Assembly (NCBI GenBank): GCA_947074105.1
Contig: CAMTON010000024.1
Coordinates: forward strand, 1 to 44,252
Length of the DNA stretch: 44,252 nt
DNA from: an uncultured Bacteroidales bacterium
Lineage (GTDB): Bacteria; Bacteroidota; Bacteroidia; Bacteroidales; JAUNSR01
Direction of reading: 5' to 3'
The number at the start of each line of letters is the position of its first letter. Position 1 is the first letter of the stretch. The notes under the pieces were generated by a model. The model searched no databases, was not told where the DNA came from, and saw only the letters and a program-made list of their open reading frames with translations. The translations under genes were made by a program, and so were the position numbers. Below, piece by piece: positions 36,266 through 44,242 of the stretch.

Positions 36266-36872
36266 GATTGGTTTATTTACGATAGTTAGATGTGTCTGTT
36301 TTGGTTGTATTAAAGTTAACTCATTTTAAGAAAGATTTTACATTTACTCTTTCACAATACAAGTTTAGACAATTCCGTGGTGTAAACCAAAAAAAATAAG
36401 ATATAAAAAGCTAATTGTTGATAAGTTTTCCTTTTTAAAAATTAAAATACTGATAATTAAGCATGTAACTAAAATTAAGTATTCAAAAGTTTTCCAAAAA
36501 ATAAATTATGTGTTATGTAACATCTTAATTTTTATTTTATTGAGAATAATTTCAATATGAAATGAAGGGCTCAAAATGTTCGTTCAATTTCAATATATTA
36601 ACTTATTTTAGACTAAATATAAACAAATAAAACATCCGTAAATAATTACATTTAAACGAGGTTAATGTTATGTGAAAATTTAAAGAAATAGTAATTGACG
36701 ATGAACAAAAAACAAACTCTTTATTTTTGTCAAATTAATATTAAAACGAAAAATAAGCTGTCATCTTTTCATAAATATTACCCCTATTGCTGTAATTATA
36801 TTGTAATTGAGTAATTTTTTTTGTTTTTTTGCGACAGAATCTCGTTTTTTCAAATAATCAATAAAGTTTAAA
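36266..36872. other. Divergent spacer between nrdJ and the aminotransferase gene
   Basis: This 607-base AT-rich region holds both promoters. On the plus side there are two -7-like boxes: TATTTTTG (36722-36729; TTG 24 bases before) and TTTTTTTG (36824-36831) with TTG 20 bases before (36801-36803). The second has one mismatch but right spacing. On the nrdJ side no good box is seen. No reading frame over 15 codons, no riboswitch and no repeat is evident. Confidence 0.4.
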
Positions 36873-38066
36873 ATGGAACACGTATCAGCGCGTTTGGCAA
36901 GTCTTTCTCCATCAGAGACTCTTGCAATGTCACAGAAAAGCCAGGAGCTGAAAGCTCAGGGGTTTAATGTAATCAATCTTAGTGTCGGGGAACCTGATTT
37001 TTTCACGCCCGAACATATTAAGGAAGCAGGGAAAAAAGCTATCGATGATAATTTCTCTTTCTATTCTCCTGTACCGGGATTTATGGATCTTAGAAAAGCT
37101 ATCAGCGATAAACTAAAAAGAGAGAATGATCTTGACTACACTCCTGAGCAGGTCATTGTTTCAGGTGGTGCTAAACAGTCGGTATGTAACACGCTTCTGT
37201 GTGTTGTGGGTCCCGGCGATGAGGTTATCATTCCTACTCCGGCATGGGTTAGCTATATGGAAATGGTTAAACTTGCCGAAGGAACTAATGTATTGATTAA
37301 CGCAGGCATTGAGCAGAACTTCAAAATCACTCCTGCTCAGCTTGAAGCAGCAATCACAGATAAGACAAAAGCTATCATTCTTTGTACTCCTTCAAATCCT
37401 ACAGGAAGCGTTTACTCAAAAGAAGAGCTTAAAGGTCTTGCTGACGTTCTTGCTAAATATCCTAAAATCACAATCATCTCTGATGAGATCTACGAACATA
37501 TCAACTATGTAGGCAAACACGAAAGCATTGCTCAGTTTGAGAATGTACGCGAGCGCGTTGTTATCGTAAACGGTGTTTCTAAAGCTTACGCGATGACAGG
37601 ATGGCGTATCGGCTTTATCGCTGCTCCTTTATGGATCGCTAAAGCCTGCAACAAACTTCAGGGACAGTATACTTCAGGAGCTTGTTCTATAGCACAGAAA
37701 GCCGCTGTAGCTGCTTACAACGGTCCTCAGGAGTGCGTTGCAGAAATGCGCGAAGCATTCGACCGCCGTCGTAATCTTGTTATCGGTCTTGCTAAAGAAA
37801 TTCCGGGATTCAAAGTGAATGTTCCTGATGGTGCATTCTATCTTTTCCCTGATGTAAGCGAATTGCTTGGCAAATCTTTCGAAGGAAAGGTGATCAAAGA
37901 CGCAAGCGATCTTGCTATGTTCCTTCTTGAGAAAGCTCTTGTAGCTACAGTAGGCGGAAACGCTTTCGGTGCTCCTGAGTGTCTTCGTCTGTCTTACGCT
38001 ACTTCAGATGAAAATCTTGTTGAAGCGATGGCAAGAATCAAAGAAGCAGTATCTTTTTTGAAATAA
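36873..38066 (+). CDS. aspC: Class I PLP-dependent aminotransferase, aspartate type
   Basis: The 397-aa protein has the class I/II fold: N-terminal SPSETLAMSQKSQELKAQG, then INLSVGEPDFFTPEHI, SGGAKQSVCNT, CTPSNPTGSVYS (Asn and Pro around the cofactor), SDEIYEHI, and the Schiff-base Lys in VSKAYAMTGWRIGF. This pattern is that of the thermophile/Bacteroides-type aspartate aminotransferase (subgroup Ib). The exact amino-acid specificity (aspartate versus prephenate) is not readable here. It is monocistronic, ending at a terminator. The codons are more C- and G-ended than most neighbours, which fits high expression. Confidence 0.9.
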   Translation: MEHVSARLASLSPSETLAMSQKSQELKAQGFNVINLSVGEPDFFTPEHIKEAGKKAIDDNFSFYSPVPGFMDLRKAISDKLKRENDLDYTPEQVIVSGGAKQSVCNTLLCVVGPGDEVIIPTPAWVSYMEMVKLAEGTNVLINAGIEQNFKITPAQLEAAITDKTKAIILCTPSNPTGSVYSKEELKGLADVLAKYPKITIISDEIYEHINYVGKHESIAQFENVRERVVIVNGVSKAYAMTGWRIGFIAAPLWIAKACNKLQGQYTSGACSIAQKAAVAAYNGPQECVAEMREAFDRRRNLVIGLAKEIPGFKVNVPDGAFYLFPDVSELLGKSFEGKVIKDASDLAMFLLEKALVATVGGNAFGAPECLRLSYATSDENLVEAMARIKEAVSFLK

Positions 38067-38117
38067 TACTATAACATTTTCTTCCCTCAGGAAAGAAGAT
38101 TATCAGTAATATACTTT

Positions 38118-38160
38118 AATAGCGGATTCATACCTTCGGGTACGGATCCGCTATTTTTTG
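38118..38160 (+). terminator. Terminator of the aminotransferase gene
   Basis: A 10-bp outer stem (38118-38127 with 38146-38155) encloses a second small stem TACC/GGTA with a TTCG loop, and is followed by six T's. Confidence 0.9.
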
Positions 38161-38202
38161 TTTATAACATCTTGTTTTTTTATTTTTTCATCTCTGCTTT
38201 TC

Positions 38203-38289
38203 CTGTCACCGTACAGTTGCAATATGACAACCGTGCACTGTCAATATTGCAACCGTACAGTGTTAATATTGCAACTGTACGGGTGACAG
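38203..38289. repeat. 22-bp tandem repeats inside a large palindrome
   Basis: Three 22-bp units run in tandem from about 38210, each close to CCGTACAGTTGCAATATGACAA, plus a partial fourth copy. The whole array is framed by an inverted repeat: 38203-38225 pairs with 38266-38289 over 23 bases with a single bulged G. Inside, CACTGT (38236-38241) pairs with ACAGTG (38257-38262), so a single strand could fold into a two-tier hairpin. The repeat unit is not a multiple of three, so it is non-coding. The family is unknown to me: an interspersed repeat, protein-binding array or MITE remnant are all possible. Confidence 0.75.
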
Positions 38290-38479
38290 AAAAAGATATC
38301 CTCCGATTTTTTGGAATGTCGATGAAAATGTAGCATTTGTCTATTGTTTTGGTCTCTGTGTCGATACTATAAATAAAATGTATTATTAATATATAATTTT
38401 GAATTGAAGTCATTCACTAACTGACTGATAACGGATTAAAGATGATGGTGATTCCGTTCAAACAAAAAACAATATCTAT

Positions 38480-39370
38480 ATGAAAAAAACAGTATTGACA
38501 TTTTCTCTGGCTTTACTTATTTCTTCTGCAGCTTTCTGTCAGCAAAAGATAGTGAAATCAGAATTCGGCAGTGGATTTGCTAAGGAAATAAAAGTGGAAG
38601 ACTTTGCTCCTTATCACACGATTGAGAAATCAACCAACAGTATAACAATGCTGCATGACGACAATTCGCTTTATATACGTTTTGTCGTTAAGGATAAACA
38701 TGAGCAGATGAAATATCTGATACAGGGTCTGACAGTATATATAGATACTAAAGGTAAACAGAATAAAAAGGCATATGTGAAATTTCCCAATGCCGGTAAA
38801 GAAATGATGAAAGGCGGGGCAGGACCTCAGGGCGGTCAGGATGATATGCCGCAGCGACAGGGAGGCGAGGATATGCAGCCCGGAGAAAGAGGACCGGAAG
38901 TTAATATAAAAGAGATGCTGTTTAAGATGATGCTTGAACCTGCGACATTCTATAAAGATAAAGATGAGATTATCCTCAACAATACGGTAGCGTCTGTTGT
39001 GCCTGTAGGCGATATGCTTGTTTACACTTGTGCAATACCATATTCATATCTGGGAAAAGTAAATAAGAAGAAAAATATTTCTCTTGGAATAGTATCAGAA
39101 TTTTCAATCTCCGGTGATCGTCCGGATAAATCTCAGGGTATGGGTAATCCACCTTCCGGAGGAAATGGAGGAAATCGTCCGGCCGGCGGACCTGGTGGTG
39201 GCGGTCCCGGCGGAATGTCAGGAGGTCCCGGCGGTATGTCGGGAGGACCGGGCGGAATGCAGGGTGGCAGACCAGGTGGAAGTACACCTCCTTCAGGAGG
39301 CCAGGGCCAGCAGGGAGGAAATAATACCTCTCAGGCTACACCGCAATGGGTAGTTTTTACGTTAAGATAA
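38480..39370 (+). CDS. Secreted Gly/Pro/Met-rich protein, unknown function
   Basis: The 296-aa product has a Sec signal peptide (about 1-20, ending SSAAFC then QQ; no proper lipobox). A beta-rich domain follows (about 22-105: SITMLHDDNSLYIRFVVKD, LTVYIDTKGK), then a Gly/Gln/Met-rich insert (about 110-140), a second beta segment (about 142-212), and a low-complexity tail (about 220-285) with three copies of GGPGGM(S/Q) at 241-261. The chain ends PQWVVFTLR. The beta part resembles carbohydrate- or haem-binding DOMON-like folds in pattern, but I cannot assign it. It lacks a sorting domain. It is a single gene closed by a terminator. Confidence 0.85.
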   Translation: MKKTVLTFSLALLISSAAFCQQKIVKSEFGSGFAKEIKVEDFAPYHTIEKSTNSITMLHDDNSLYIRFVVKDKHEQMKYLIQGLTVYIDTKGKQNKKAYVKFPNAGKEMMKGGAGPQGGQDDMPQRQGGEDMQPGERGPEVNIKEMLFKMMLEPATFYKDKDEIILNNTVASVVPVGDMLVYTCAIPYSYLGKVNKKKNISLGIVSEFSISGDRPDKSQGMGNPPSGGNGGNRPAGGPGGGGPGGMSGGPGGMSGGPGGMQGGRPGGSTPPSGGQGQQGGNNTSQATPQWVVFTLR

Positions 39371-39447
39371 AATGATATAATAATATAAATAGTTTTTCTA
39401 TTACAGATATATAAATAGTTGATTTTTGAATAAGTATTGAGGAAAAG

Positions 39448-39490
39448 ATTCCGGAAGCAATGTTGAGACAAAGCTTTCCGGAATTTTTTT
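39448..39490 (+). terminator. Terminator of the Gly-rich protein gene
   Basis: An 11-bp stem with one bulged T (39448-39458 with 39473-39484) is followed by a seven-T run. Confidence 0.85.
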
Positions 39491-39507
39491 ATTTGATTAT
39501 TATTGGT

Positions 39508-40559: not shown

Positions 40560-41129
40560 ATGATACGATTGAAATTTAGGTTGGTTCTTTTATTAACCCT
40601 CTTTGTTGTGTTGGACGGGTATGGACAGATTGCAGTGAAGACTAACATATTCATGGATGCTTTCAGGATTCCAAATCTGGCCGTAGAAGTCGGAACGAGT
40701 CAGAAGACTACAATTGAAGTGCCTTTTTATTATAATCAGTGGAAATACTCGGAAATGAAGCAATATAAACTTATGATGATTCAGCCTGAGTTGAGATATT
40801 GGCTTTGTGATAAGTTTAACGGACATTTTTTCGGTATTCATCTGATGGCAGGAGTCTATAATACTATGGGTATAAAACCTCTTGTACCGCTTTGGAGTGA
40901 CATGAAGACTCATCATTATAAAGGCGATTTCTATGGTGCAGGACTTTCTTATGGTTATCATTATATATTAAGCCGCCACTGGAGTGCGGAAGCAACCCTA
41001 GGGTTTGGATATGCTTATGTCAATTATAAGAAATATGAATGTAAGGACTGCCCCAAAAGGATAGAAAAATCGAACAAGAACTATTTGGGACCTTCAAAAG
41101 CTGCACTGAATCTAATTTATATGTTTTAA
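40560..41129 (+). CDS. DUF3575-family protein, fimbrial operon
   Basis: The 189-aa product has a signal peptide (about 1-22, ending GYGQ) and a beta-rich body with the family's features: AVKTNIFMDAFRIPNLAVEVGTSQKTTIEVPFYYNQW, RYWL, and a C-terminus ending IYMF, suggesting an outer-membrane barrel. DUF3575 proteins in Bacteroidales commonly neighbour fimbrillin genes. The role, perhaps in pilus assembly or anchoring, is not established. DUF3868/OmpA gene begins 11 bases after its stop, so the two are co-transcribed. Confidence 0.85.
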   Translation: MIRLKFRLVLLLTLFVVLDGYGQIAVKTNIFMDAFRIPNLAVEVGTSQKTTIEVPFYYNQWKYSEMKQYKLMMIQPELRYWLCDKFNGHFFGIHLMAGVYNTMGIKPLVPLWSDMKTHHYKGDFYGAGLSYGYHYILSRHWSAEATLGFGYAYVNYKKYECKDCPKRIEKSNKNYLGPSKAALNLIYMF

Positions 41130-41140
41130 AGAAAGAAGAG

Positions 41141-42607
41141 ATGAAATACCTTATATATGTCATGTCGTTGTGTTTCTGTCTTATGGCTGTTGATGCCAGG
41201 GCAGAATATACAGATCAGAATCTTTTTAAAATTGCGAAAAAAACCTTTTCACTGAATGCTGACGGAACTCTTGTAATCGGTATGGATGTGGTAGTAGGAG
41301 AGGATGTAAAGCTTTCCTCAGATCGCTATCTTACAATCGTTCCGGTGCTGGAATCTGCTGATAACAAGCATAGTGTGACCTTTCCTTCTGTCTATCTCTT
41401 CGGACGTCGCCGTGAAATATCGCAAAGGCGGACAAATTCGATGCCAAAAGATGCGCATAAGATAGTAAGAAGAAAAAATAAGACTCGTCAGACGATAGAA
41501 TATCTTGTGCGTATACCTTATGAAGAGTGGATGCACGGAGCTGATCTGTCGCTGGCAACAGAAGTCCATGGTTGTGCAAAATGCCGTCTTTCTCAGGATG
41601 ATATGAACCTGATGACATTGCATACCGAACGATATAAAGTGAGTCCGTCGCTGGCATATGTTACTCCACAAGCTGAGGCGGTTAAAAATCGTTCAGAAGA
41701 GGGTAAGGCTTATCTTGATTTTCCTGTAAATCAGATAATAATTGAGCCTGAGTTCCGAAATAACCGTAACGAGCTTGCTAAAATCAGAGCAACGGTGGAT
41801 CTGGTAAGAAATGATAAGAATTCAACTATAACGGGTATAACGATTATCGGTCATGCTTCGCCCGAGGGTGAATATAGCAGAAATGCCTATCTGGCACAGG
41901 GCAGAGCGGAAGCGATGAAGAAATATATCCTTGGTTATTATGATATTGAAAGCCGTCTGATAAAGGTTAGTTCTGTTGCAGAGGATTGGGCAGGGCTTCG
42001 CGATTATGTAAAATCAAGCGATATGGCCTTTCGTAACGATATCCTTAAGATTATTGATTCGGATGACCGTAATTATGATAATAAGGAGATGTGTATCAGA
42101 ATGATTGATGAAGGTAAACCGTATGAATTGCTTTTCAGAAAGATTTATCCTGCTCTTCGCCGTTCAGATTATGTAGTAACCTATGTGGTGCGCGATTTCT
42201 CGGTGGAAGAGGTAAGGGAAATAATAAAACGACGTCCGCAGCTGTTGAGCCTAGAAGAGATGTATCGTCTTGCACAGACCTATGAGAAGGGTAGTGATGA
42301 TTTCAACGATGTCTTCGATATCGCGGTAAGAATGTTTCCTGAAGATGAAACAGCAAATATCAATGCATCATCTATGGAGCTTCAACGCGGAAACCTGAAA
42401 CAGGCCGAGAAGTATCTTGCCAAACTGGGACTTAATAATCATATCGTGATTAATAATATGGGACTTCTTAAGCTTATGCAGGGAAATCTTGATGAGGCTA
42501 AATTATATCTTGAAAAAGCCCGTGATATGGGATCGCAGGAAGCTGCGGCCAATCTTATAGAACTGGAAAAGAAAAGAACCGACAATCTGAAATTCAGTGA
42601 TGAATAA
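41141..42607 (+). CDS. DUF3868/OmpA-like/TPR protein, fimbrial operon
   Basis: The 488-aa product has a signal peptide (about 1-21), a beta-rich N-terminal DUF3868-type domain (about 22-175), an OmpA-like peptidoglycan-binding domain (about 188-265, with TITGITIIGHASPEGEYSRN and LAQGRAEAMKKYI) and TPR-like helical repeats (about 390-475: ANINASSMELQRGNLKQAEKYL, VINNMGLLKLMQGNLDEAKLYLEKA). The plan suggests a periplasmic or outer-membrane protein that ties the pilus machinery to peptidoglycan. The order DUF3575, DUF3868 and then Mfa1 fimbrillin is a recurrent Bacteroidales arrangement. Fimbrillin follows 114 bases after this stop. Confidence 0.85.
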   Translation: MKYLIYVMSLCFCLMAVDARAEYTDQNLFKIAKKTFSLNADGTLVIGMDVVVGEDVKLSSDRYLTIVPVLESADNKHSVTFPSVYLFGRRREISQRRTNSMPKDAHKIVRRKNKTRQTIEYLVRIPYEEWMHGADLSLATEVHGCAKCRLSQDDMNLMTLHTERYKVSPSLAYVTPQAEAVKNRSEEGKAYLDFPVNQIIIEPEFRNNRNELAKIRATVDLVRNDKNSTITGITIIGHASPEGEYSRNAYLAQGRAEAMKKYILGYYDIESRLIKVSSVAEDWAGLRDYVKSSDMAFRNDILKIIDSDDRNYDNKEMCIRMIDEGKPYELLFRKIYPALRRSDYVVTYVVRDFSVEEVREIIKRRPQLLSLEEMYRLAQTYEKGSDDFNDVFDIAVRMFPEDETANINASSMELQRGNLKQAEKYLAKLGLNNHIVINNMGLLKLMQGNLDEAKLYLEKARDMGSQEAAANLIELEKKRTDNLKFSDE

Positions 42608-42721
42608 AGGATAGCCGTATCACATATTTATGCTTAAAAGGCAGGTGCCGAAATGGAAATTGCCGCAATAATTAACAAACAGTATAAGATAATTCAGATT
42701 ACAAATACAATTTTAATTTTT

Positions 42722-44242
42722 ATGAAAACAAGAAATTTATTTCTAAGTACACTTGCGTGTGCGTCATTGCTTGCTTGTTCTAAAGATGATGATTCAAGCA
42801 TTCAGGAAGTGTTGTCGGGAGACAATTATGTAGCTGTTAATATCGTTGCTCCTGCGGGAGGAACAAGAGCTCTTGGTGGTGTTGACCAGGGAACAGCTGC
42901 GGAAAGTGCAGTGAATTCAGCTATTTTCTTTTTCTTCGACAGTAACGGTAATGGATGTGCAAATCCTAATTATATTCCAACTTTTACAATGACCGGAAAT
43001 GAAGAAGGATCTCTATCAGAGGCTGTCCTTGTTCTTGAAAATCCTTCAGCAGTACCTTCCTCAATGGTTGCGATTATGAACCCTACAGAAAAGATAATCG
43101 GGCTTACTGCTTCAGTTTCTCTTTCAGCATTGAAAAATCAGGTTGATGCATATTATACAACTGGAACAACAAATTTCCTGATGTCTAACTCTGTATATGT
43201 AGGAGCAAATAATACAACTGTTAGTTCTACAGCTATTTCACCTTCACAGATCTGTTCAACAAAAGATGAAGCAAAAAACAGCGCTGTAACCATACCTGTA
43301 GAGCGTCTTGTTGCTAAGGTAAATGCGAATCTTGGTTCTGTGTCAGGTAAAGAAACTTATATGGTAAACGGAGAAGAAACTATATTATCAATTAATCTTA
43401 TAGGTTGGAAAGCAACAAACTTAAATCCGAAATCATATCTTATTAAAAATGTAGAAGGCATTTCTGTTGAAACATGGTGGAATGATGTTACTAATCTTCG
43501 TTCTTACTGGGCTAATTCAAGCGCAACAGATTCTTATAAAACTTTTACATACAGCGAAATTGCCGGAAATAAAGCACCTCAGTATTGTCTTGAAAATACG
43601 ACTTCACAGCCTACAAAGCTTATTGTTGCTGCTCAGGTAACAGATCAGGCTGGTAATCCTGTTGACTTAATGGAGTGGAGAGGTGAAAAATATACTTCTG
43701 ACGATATGAAGACTCGCCTTGCCGGATTTATGAAGAATTATTATACAAGAACAAACACAGAAGTAGAAGGAGAATATAAGTATGTATCTCTTTCTTCAAA
43801 CTATATCACATTTACAATTTCTGCTTCAGAAAACACTGCAGAAACAAGCTATAAGGTAGAGGCAGCTCTTACAGAGAATACACCTCAGCTTTATACGTTT
43901 TATGGAGATGTGGCAACTACTGTAACTATAAAAGATGCGAATGATGCTCTTTCTTCATTAGGAGAAATCAAACACTGGAACAATGGTGCGACATATTATT
44001 ATGTTGATATCCAGCACAGAGGAAAAGATAGTGAGGGAGCTGATATAATGGGAACTTACGGAGTTATCCGTAACCATTCTTATGATTTAACTATCAACTC
44101 TGTAAAAGGTCTTGGTACTCCGGTTCCTGATGAGAATGTAGTAATCGTTCCTACAAAACCAACTGATGAAGAAACTTATATAGCTGCTAAGATCGAAGTA
44201 TTAAGCTGGAGAGTAGTATCTCAGACAGTAGATCTTGAATAA
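42722..44242 (+). CDS. Mfa1-family fimbrillin, type V pilus subunit
   Basis: From the ATG at 42722 the protein is 506 aa and begins with a lipoprotein signal (lipobox LLACS, Cys19); the in-frame upstream ATG at 42653 would hide it. After the lipid anchor comes the N-terminal strand NYVAVNIVAPAGGTRALGG, with Arg49-Ala50 in the position where P. gingivalis Mfa1 is matured by an Arg-specific protease. Two beta-sandwich domains follow and the C-terminus (IEVLSWRVVSQTVDLE) matches the donor-strand end of Mfa1-type subunits. It is complete: TAA ends 10 bases before the window edge. Accessory and tip genes would lie beyond. The family call is by sequence pattern. Confidence 0.88.
   Translation: MKTRNLFLSTLACASLLACSKDDDSSIQEVLSGDNYVAVNIVAPAGGTRALGGVDQGTAAESAVNSAIFFFFDSNGNGCANPNYIPTFTMTGNEEGSLSEAVLVLENPSAVPSSMVAIMNPTEKIIGLTASVSLSALKNQVDAYYTTGTTNFLMSNSVYVGANNTTVSSTAISPSQICSTKDEAKNSAVTIPVERLVAKVNANLGSVSGKETYMVNGEETILSINLIGWKATNLNPKSYLIKNVEGISVETWWNDVTNLRSYWANSSATDSYKTFTYSEIAGNKAPQYCLENTTSQPTKLIVAAQVTDQAGNPVDLMEWRGEKYTSDDMKTRLAGFMKNYYTRTNTEVEGEYKYVSLSSNYITFTISASENTAETSYKVEAALTENTPQLYTFYGDVATTVTIKDANDALSSLGEIKHWNNGATYYYVDIQHRGKDSEGADIMGTYGVIRNHSYDLTINSVKGLGTPVPDENVVIVPTKPTDEETYIAAKIEVLSWRVVSQTVDLE

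Follow-up and report, generated by a model that had tools for sequence, protein, structure and literature searches.

Introduction

The described elements closest to the repeats analysed here include the BrickBuilt minisatellite MITEs of Porphyromonas gingivalis. In an extract of the article that describes them (PMC4596501), they are intergenic tandem repeats of 23 nt without spacers, found in 19 copies in one strain and restricted to the species. They contain 1 to 22.8 repeat copies with up to 6% indels, and have a leader and a tail with IS5-like ends; the same extract mentions 22-nt direct repeats in P. gingivalis W83 from earlier work. REP/BIME elements, with their GTAG and CGTC families, are extragenic high-copy palindromes presented as species-specific and fast in turnover in an extract of PMC3733652. 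Another repeat of P. gingivalis, an inverted repeat of 77 bp, was weighed as kin and discarded, since it is a long two-armed hairpin and the element described below is a phased array. Helically phased or dispersed palindromic sites served by a dedicated protein are familiar from plasmid iterons and partition-site arrays and from the chromosomal sites of SlmA, Noc and MatP.

Results

The window, the whole stretch of DNA that was analysed (44,252 nucleotides), comes from an uncultured Bacteroidales bacterium. TRF reports in it a period-22 array at 38208-38280 with 3.3 copies and 0% indels, and a repeat search found three units spaced exactly 22 nt, at 78% to the reference copy, together with 37-nt inverted arms (76%). 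The three 22-bp units and partial fourth of the original prediction are thus confirmed. As a single strand, 38203-38289 takes the predicted fold, in which an outer stem of 23 bp has one bulge and encloses an inner stem of 6 bp, with z = -7.5 (200 dinucleotide shuffles, 0/200 as stable); this inverted repeat arises because the units are near-palindromes. No ORF of at least 80 aa in the ORF listing of the window overlaps 38203-38289, bearing out the claim that the array is non-coding, and CRISPR, which the prediction had also denied, is ruled out because the units are contiguous at the 22-bp period and lack unique spacers. The coordinates are given in Table 1.

Table 1. Positions of the array, its parts and the neighbouring terminator-like hairpin in the window.
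Feature	Position	Strand	Basis
Full array of period 22, in which four GTAC-type dyads alternate with three ATAT dyads at 11-bp steps	38203..38289		TRF, repeat search, fold
22-bp unit 1	38208..38229	+	repeat search
22-bp unit 2, GTGC instead of GTAC	38230..38251	+	repeat search
22-bp unit 3	38252..38273	+	repeat search
Partial unit 4 with last GTAC dyad	38274..38285	+	repeat search, dyad caller
GTAC dyad 1 (others: 38233, 38255, 38277)	38211..38214		sequence, alignment of arrays
ATAT dyad 1 (others: 38244, 38266)	38222..38225		sequence, alignment of arrays
Outer 23-bp inverted repeat, left arm	38203..38225		fold
Outer inverted repeat, right arm, one bulge	38266..38289		fold
Terminator-like hairpin and T run of upstream aminotransferase gene	38120..38159	+	by eye

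The array sits 3' of the terminator-like hairpin recognized by eye and is distinct from it. Its neighbours are a class I/II aminotransferase gene on one side and a gene for a protein without Pfam match on the other. A 21-bp tandem repeat at 39203-39263 (3.0 copies) lies inside the ORF 38480-39370 and is thus a coding repeat of seven residues. At 40560-44242, DUF3575, DUF3868/OmpA-like and Fimbrillin_C proteins stand in a row, forming a fimbria-type surface locus that adjoins the array.

Searching the own genome with 191 bases around the window array gave 69 matches. The family pattern (two GTAC dyads and one ATAT, at most 3 mismatches) was found 220 times forward and 206 times reverse, compared with 3 and 0 for the reversed-pattern control, which excludes chance. 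A sequence model built from 44 arrays gave 153 matches on both strands, 150 of 1477 first-look candidates having been scored. The genome holds at least 79 distinct arrays, 78 hand-merged from the model matches listed and one from the pattern search only. These dispersed copies rule out a local one-off duplication, as which the original prediction would have regarded a unit found only here.

Among the 51 arrays examined (the window copy and 50 fetched regions, found by similarity to the window copy and hence biased toward the consensus), the dyad caller counted exactly four GTAC-type dyads in 45, five in one and three in five; two of the last group are cut off by contig ends, and in another the fourth dyad is weak. 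GTAC-like and ATAT dyads alternate 11 bp apart, and the half-unit consensus is A-C-R-G-T-K-N-Y-N-A-T (n=298), with its C in 297, its T in 297 and its A in 298. Unit spacing was 22 bp in 148/148 cases (18-26 allowed), and in one array an additional unit stands at 23. The idea that adjacent units alternate did not generalise. A conserved A tract marks the array ends, and the flanks fall into two end types, GTACGGTTGYAC-nn-AAAA and GTACGTCTTTTTT; another A-rich spot lies about 21 bp farther out. The L051 and L044 arrays have unusual GCCC and GGGC centres that are complementary partners within one array, as though one arm were a copy of the other, and two contigs of the assembly end within an array (L081, L082).

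The window sequence matched only its own genome among the 60 searched, and the own-genome family pattern was at background in four congeners. No match was obtained for the own-genome family in plasmids, phages and viral contigs, for the Bacteroides mediterraneensis array described below in plasmids and phages, or for the exact long pattern, which is strict, in genome contigs. A motif-blind detector scoring lag similarity and dyad symmetry gave 25 matches at lag 22 in 1.2 Mb of the congener G001, at least two of which (C14:10066, C17:3876) look by eye like weak repeats or repeats of another type; it gave one match each at lags 17 and 18 and none at 19-21 and 23-27. G001 has three palindrome families of period 22 that differ from the own-genome family, and their neighbouring units (up to 60 bp) are spaced by 22 or 44 in 42/42 cases. 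Single-unit counts were 53 vs 66 in the reversed control for family B and 63 vs 27 for family C, so that only clustered units are informative. Arrays of family A (C1:14176, C2:390, C6:45483, C9:7679 and C14:33702, in the fetched stretches) have outer inverted ends in common around the 22-bp palindromes. The own genome (G000) and G001 both carry an array at 1 of 12 syntenic gaps, no more than estimated chance, and same-site exchange of arrays, considered at L064, was set aside on this ground.

The same geometry is built from another word in Bacteroides. A double AAACGC-N4-GCGTTT unit gave 258 and 209 forward matches in two genomes labelled B. mediterraneensis (control 0), 9 in B. caecigallinarum and 34 in a Phocaeicola MAG. 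A 400-kb stretch was compared between the two B. mediterraneensis-labelled genomes (mean identity 87.5% across HSPs >400 bases). It holds 6 and 5 arrays, whose spacings were 22 in 45/45, with 21, 22, 23 and 44 allowed in chaining; the motif-blind detector found 13 and 6 matches there at lag 22, as well as 3 and 3 at lag 21 that are presumed to be coding repeats. Of 7 array sites, 3 are clearly orthologous, 1 is probably so, 1 is degraded in the partner and 2 are absent there. Identity in the three orthologous arrays was 147/150 in the core, 64/90 at inner and 34/72 at spacer positions, the core being somewhat favoured as units were found by the core pattern with at most 2 mismatches. A kept core with free spacers at orthologous sites is the signature expected of retained, putative binding sites. 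Outside the families discussed, 80 related loci of named genomes (1.32 Mb) gave 6 motif-blind matches at lag 22 (at least one of them, L176, of poor quality), 3 at lag 21, 1 at lag 19 and none at any of the eight remaining lags. Beyond Bacteroides, Phocaeicola and this genus, the class therefore appears patchy.

The second B. mediterraneensis-labelled genome has a 4.03-Mb contig along which 57 array positions, hand-merged among the matches listed, are not evenly distributed (Rayleigh R 0.31, p 0.005; mean position 1850 kb). GC skew along this contig (20 samples of 10 kb), as read, places the origin at about 3.8 Mb and the terminus at about 2.2-2.6 Mb. On this reading the arrays seem scarcer close to the origin, a lead from the matches listed in one genome.

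Dispersed intergenic copies, gained and lost between species, could be explained by a non-autonomous, BrickBuilt-like MITE carrying a minisatellite whose 22-bp units are transposase binding sites, and G001 family A, with its common outer ends, looks the most MITE-like of all families. However, a search of 49 arrays detected no target-site duplication (best z 5.1, against 3.5-5.1 in re-paired controls), nor any end-to-end identity beyond composition. Pairwise identity of 45 own-genome arrays averages 71%; the best pair reaches only 89%, so that near-identical recent copies are lacking among them, and no flank is shared between arrays. In column-shuffled arrays the best pair averaged 83%, and the median best identity was 78%, as against 80% in the real arrays. 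Once the shared consensus is allowed for, these values hardly point to recent copying. The core kept at orthologous Bacteroides-family sites also argues against a MITE, which we regard as possible but doubtful. Of the mobile or regulatory element originally suggested, the dispersed element stands, but its mobility finds no support in the missing target-site duplications and the 89% best pair.

The arrays lie between genes, none of the 51 being inside an ORF of at least 150 aa. With gene calls that are plain ORFs, 45 classified arrays comprise 28 co-directional, 9 convergent and 8 divergent gaps, compared with 26.4, 5.6 and 12.9 expected from the number of other gaps; for divergent gaps the expectation by length is 16.5. 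Since the copies examined occur in all gene arrangements, the significance first attached to a site between housekeeping and surface-protein genes is not supported. Operator arrays of one large regulon would account for dyads that resemble the half-sites of a dimer. Yet only the 8 arrays above occupy divergent gaps, and copies in co-directional gaps (n=29) are closer to the stop of the upstream gene (median 95) than to the start of the next one (167), which makes this explanation improbable.

The stable fold of the window copy and the T run on some array ends are compatible with an RNA or cruciform hairpin acting as terminator, mRNA stabiliser or structured RNA. When 45 real arrays were compared with reassemblies of their own half-units, however, they folded more weakly in all six comparisons: z was +3.0 and +2.6 (slot-permuted) and +3.4 and +1.4 (within array) for RNA, and +1.7 and +2.4 for DNA. 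This shows that selection does not favour the hairpin, which is probably not the functional form. Adjacent half-words are identical in 5 cases vs 14.3 expected across ATAT (n=135) and in 2 vs 9.6 across GTAC (n=90); pairs with 0-1 mismatches over all arm positions number 5 vs 15.5 and 2 vs 9.8, respectively. Considered by themselves, perfect ATAT palindromes show no depletion (3 vs 3.9 expected), and the distant inverted pair formed by half-units 0 and 3 is alike more often than by chance (11 vs 4.6). In Bacteroides arrays, self-complementary inner 4-mers are absent (0/56 vs 14.9 expected). Perfect palindromes are thus avoided in two families, the own-genome and the Bacteroides-type AAACGC one. 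Moreover, the arrays occupy every gene orientation, and Rfam gave no match at 36500-39500 around the window array and only tRNAs in seven further array loci. A functional hairpin is therefore very improbable.

Spread as REP/BIME elements by a REP-associated Y1 transposase (RAYT) is the least probable explanation, with hardly any likelihood left: the copies are extragenic palindromes in high copy and alternating orientation that underuse divergent gaps, but their geometry is a fixed phased array, and PF01797 (Y1_Tnp) has no match in the own genome or in five further genomes with such arrays or the Bacteroides-type pattern (5/14 control genomes are positive), the own genome and G001 being about 95% complete so that a Y1 gene could be missed.

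Discussion

We consider the chances about even that the array is one of many dispersed duplex DNA-binding platforms between transcription units, with a probable role in chromosome or nucleoid architecture or in insulation, a dyad core and a 22-bp phase under selection, and some route of copying. Seven dyads 11 bp apart would place recognition elements on nearly one face of the helix, where a dimeric sequence-specific protein could load side by side and cooperatively; we infer both this protein and its cooperativity. The platforms would lie a little closer to the 3' end of the gene upstream of them, and their role, likewise inferred, would most likely be to shape the chromosome or nucleoid or to insulate neighbouring units rather than to control one gene. 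Copies would be gained and lost over species time, selection keeping the dyad core and the 22-bp phase while a copy persists. The two features looked for in a binding array, a fixed helical phase and a kept dyad core, were both found. A phase without indels despite 29% divergence, a kept core, and inner and spacer bases that vary more freely would be expected of a putative protein-bound duplex.

Several observations weigh against such platforms. Turnover is high, with only 3-4 of 7 sites shared in the B. mediterraneensis pair, and would also fit a neutral or selfish repeat; array positions are not common to G000 and G001; and the avoidance of perfect palindromes fails in G001 family C, in which many are seen by eye.

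Arrays of the same spacing but different words within the same order point to an undescribed kind of candidate protein-binding platform, and a literature search, mainly of open papers, returned no description of 22-bp phased palindrome arrays. More tentatively, and against our leaning, the arrays may belong to a chromosome-organising system of the Bacteroidales. Its geometry would be kept (dyads at 11-bp intervals, a period of 22, roughly one array in 50-70 kb and fewer arrays close to the replication origin) and its word swapped wholesale between relatives as a putative protein and its arrays co-evolve fast, like centromere or PRDM9 drive in eukaryotes. Similarity searches can barely see a non-coding class set by spacing and not by sequence; this would account for how easily it is missed. 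If a protein were shown to bind, the arrays would open nucleoid organisation to study in abundant gut bacteria, with tens of sites per genome, and the series of motif swaps would allow the co-evolution of a protein and its DNA sites to be followed.

Among known systems, plasmid iterons and partition sites serve one origin or centromere, whereas the arrays described here number in the tens on the chromosome; their motif also changes between congeners, in contrast to these sites and to those of SlmA, Noc and MatP. As far as the extract of PMC3733652 goes, REP/BIME elements share with the arrays their extragenic palindromes, high copy number, species specificity and fast turnover. They form one or two hairpins, whereas the arrays are phased, have no GTAG/CGTC tag by eye and come with no Y1 transposase that we found. 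BrickBuilt, as portrayed in the extract of PMC4596501, is similar in being a spacerless intergenic repeat of about two helical turns in the Bacteroidales. The arrays described here differ from it: most have four dyads, indels are absent, no target duplication was detected, and the 22-bp phase is strict and common to several unrelated motif families.
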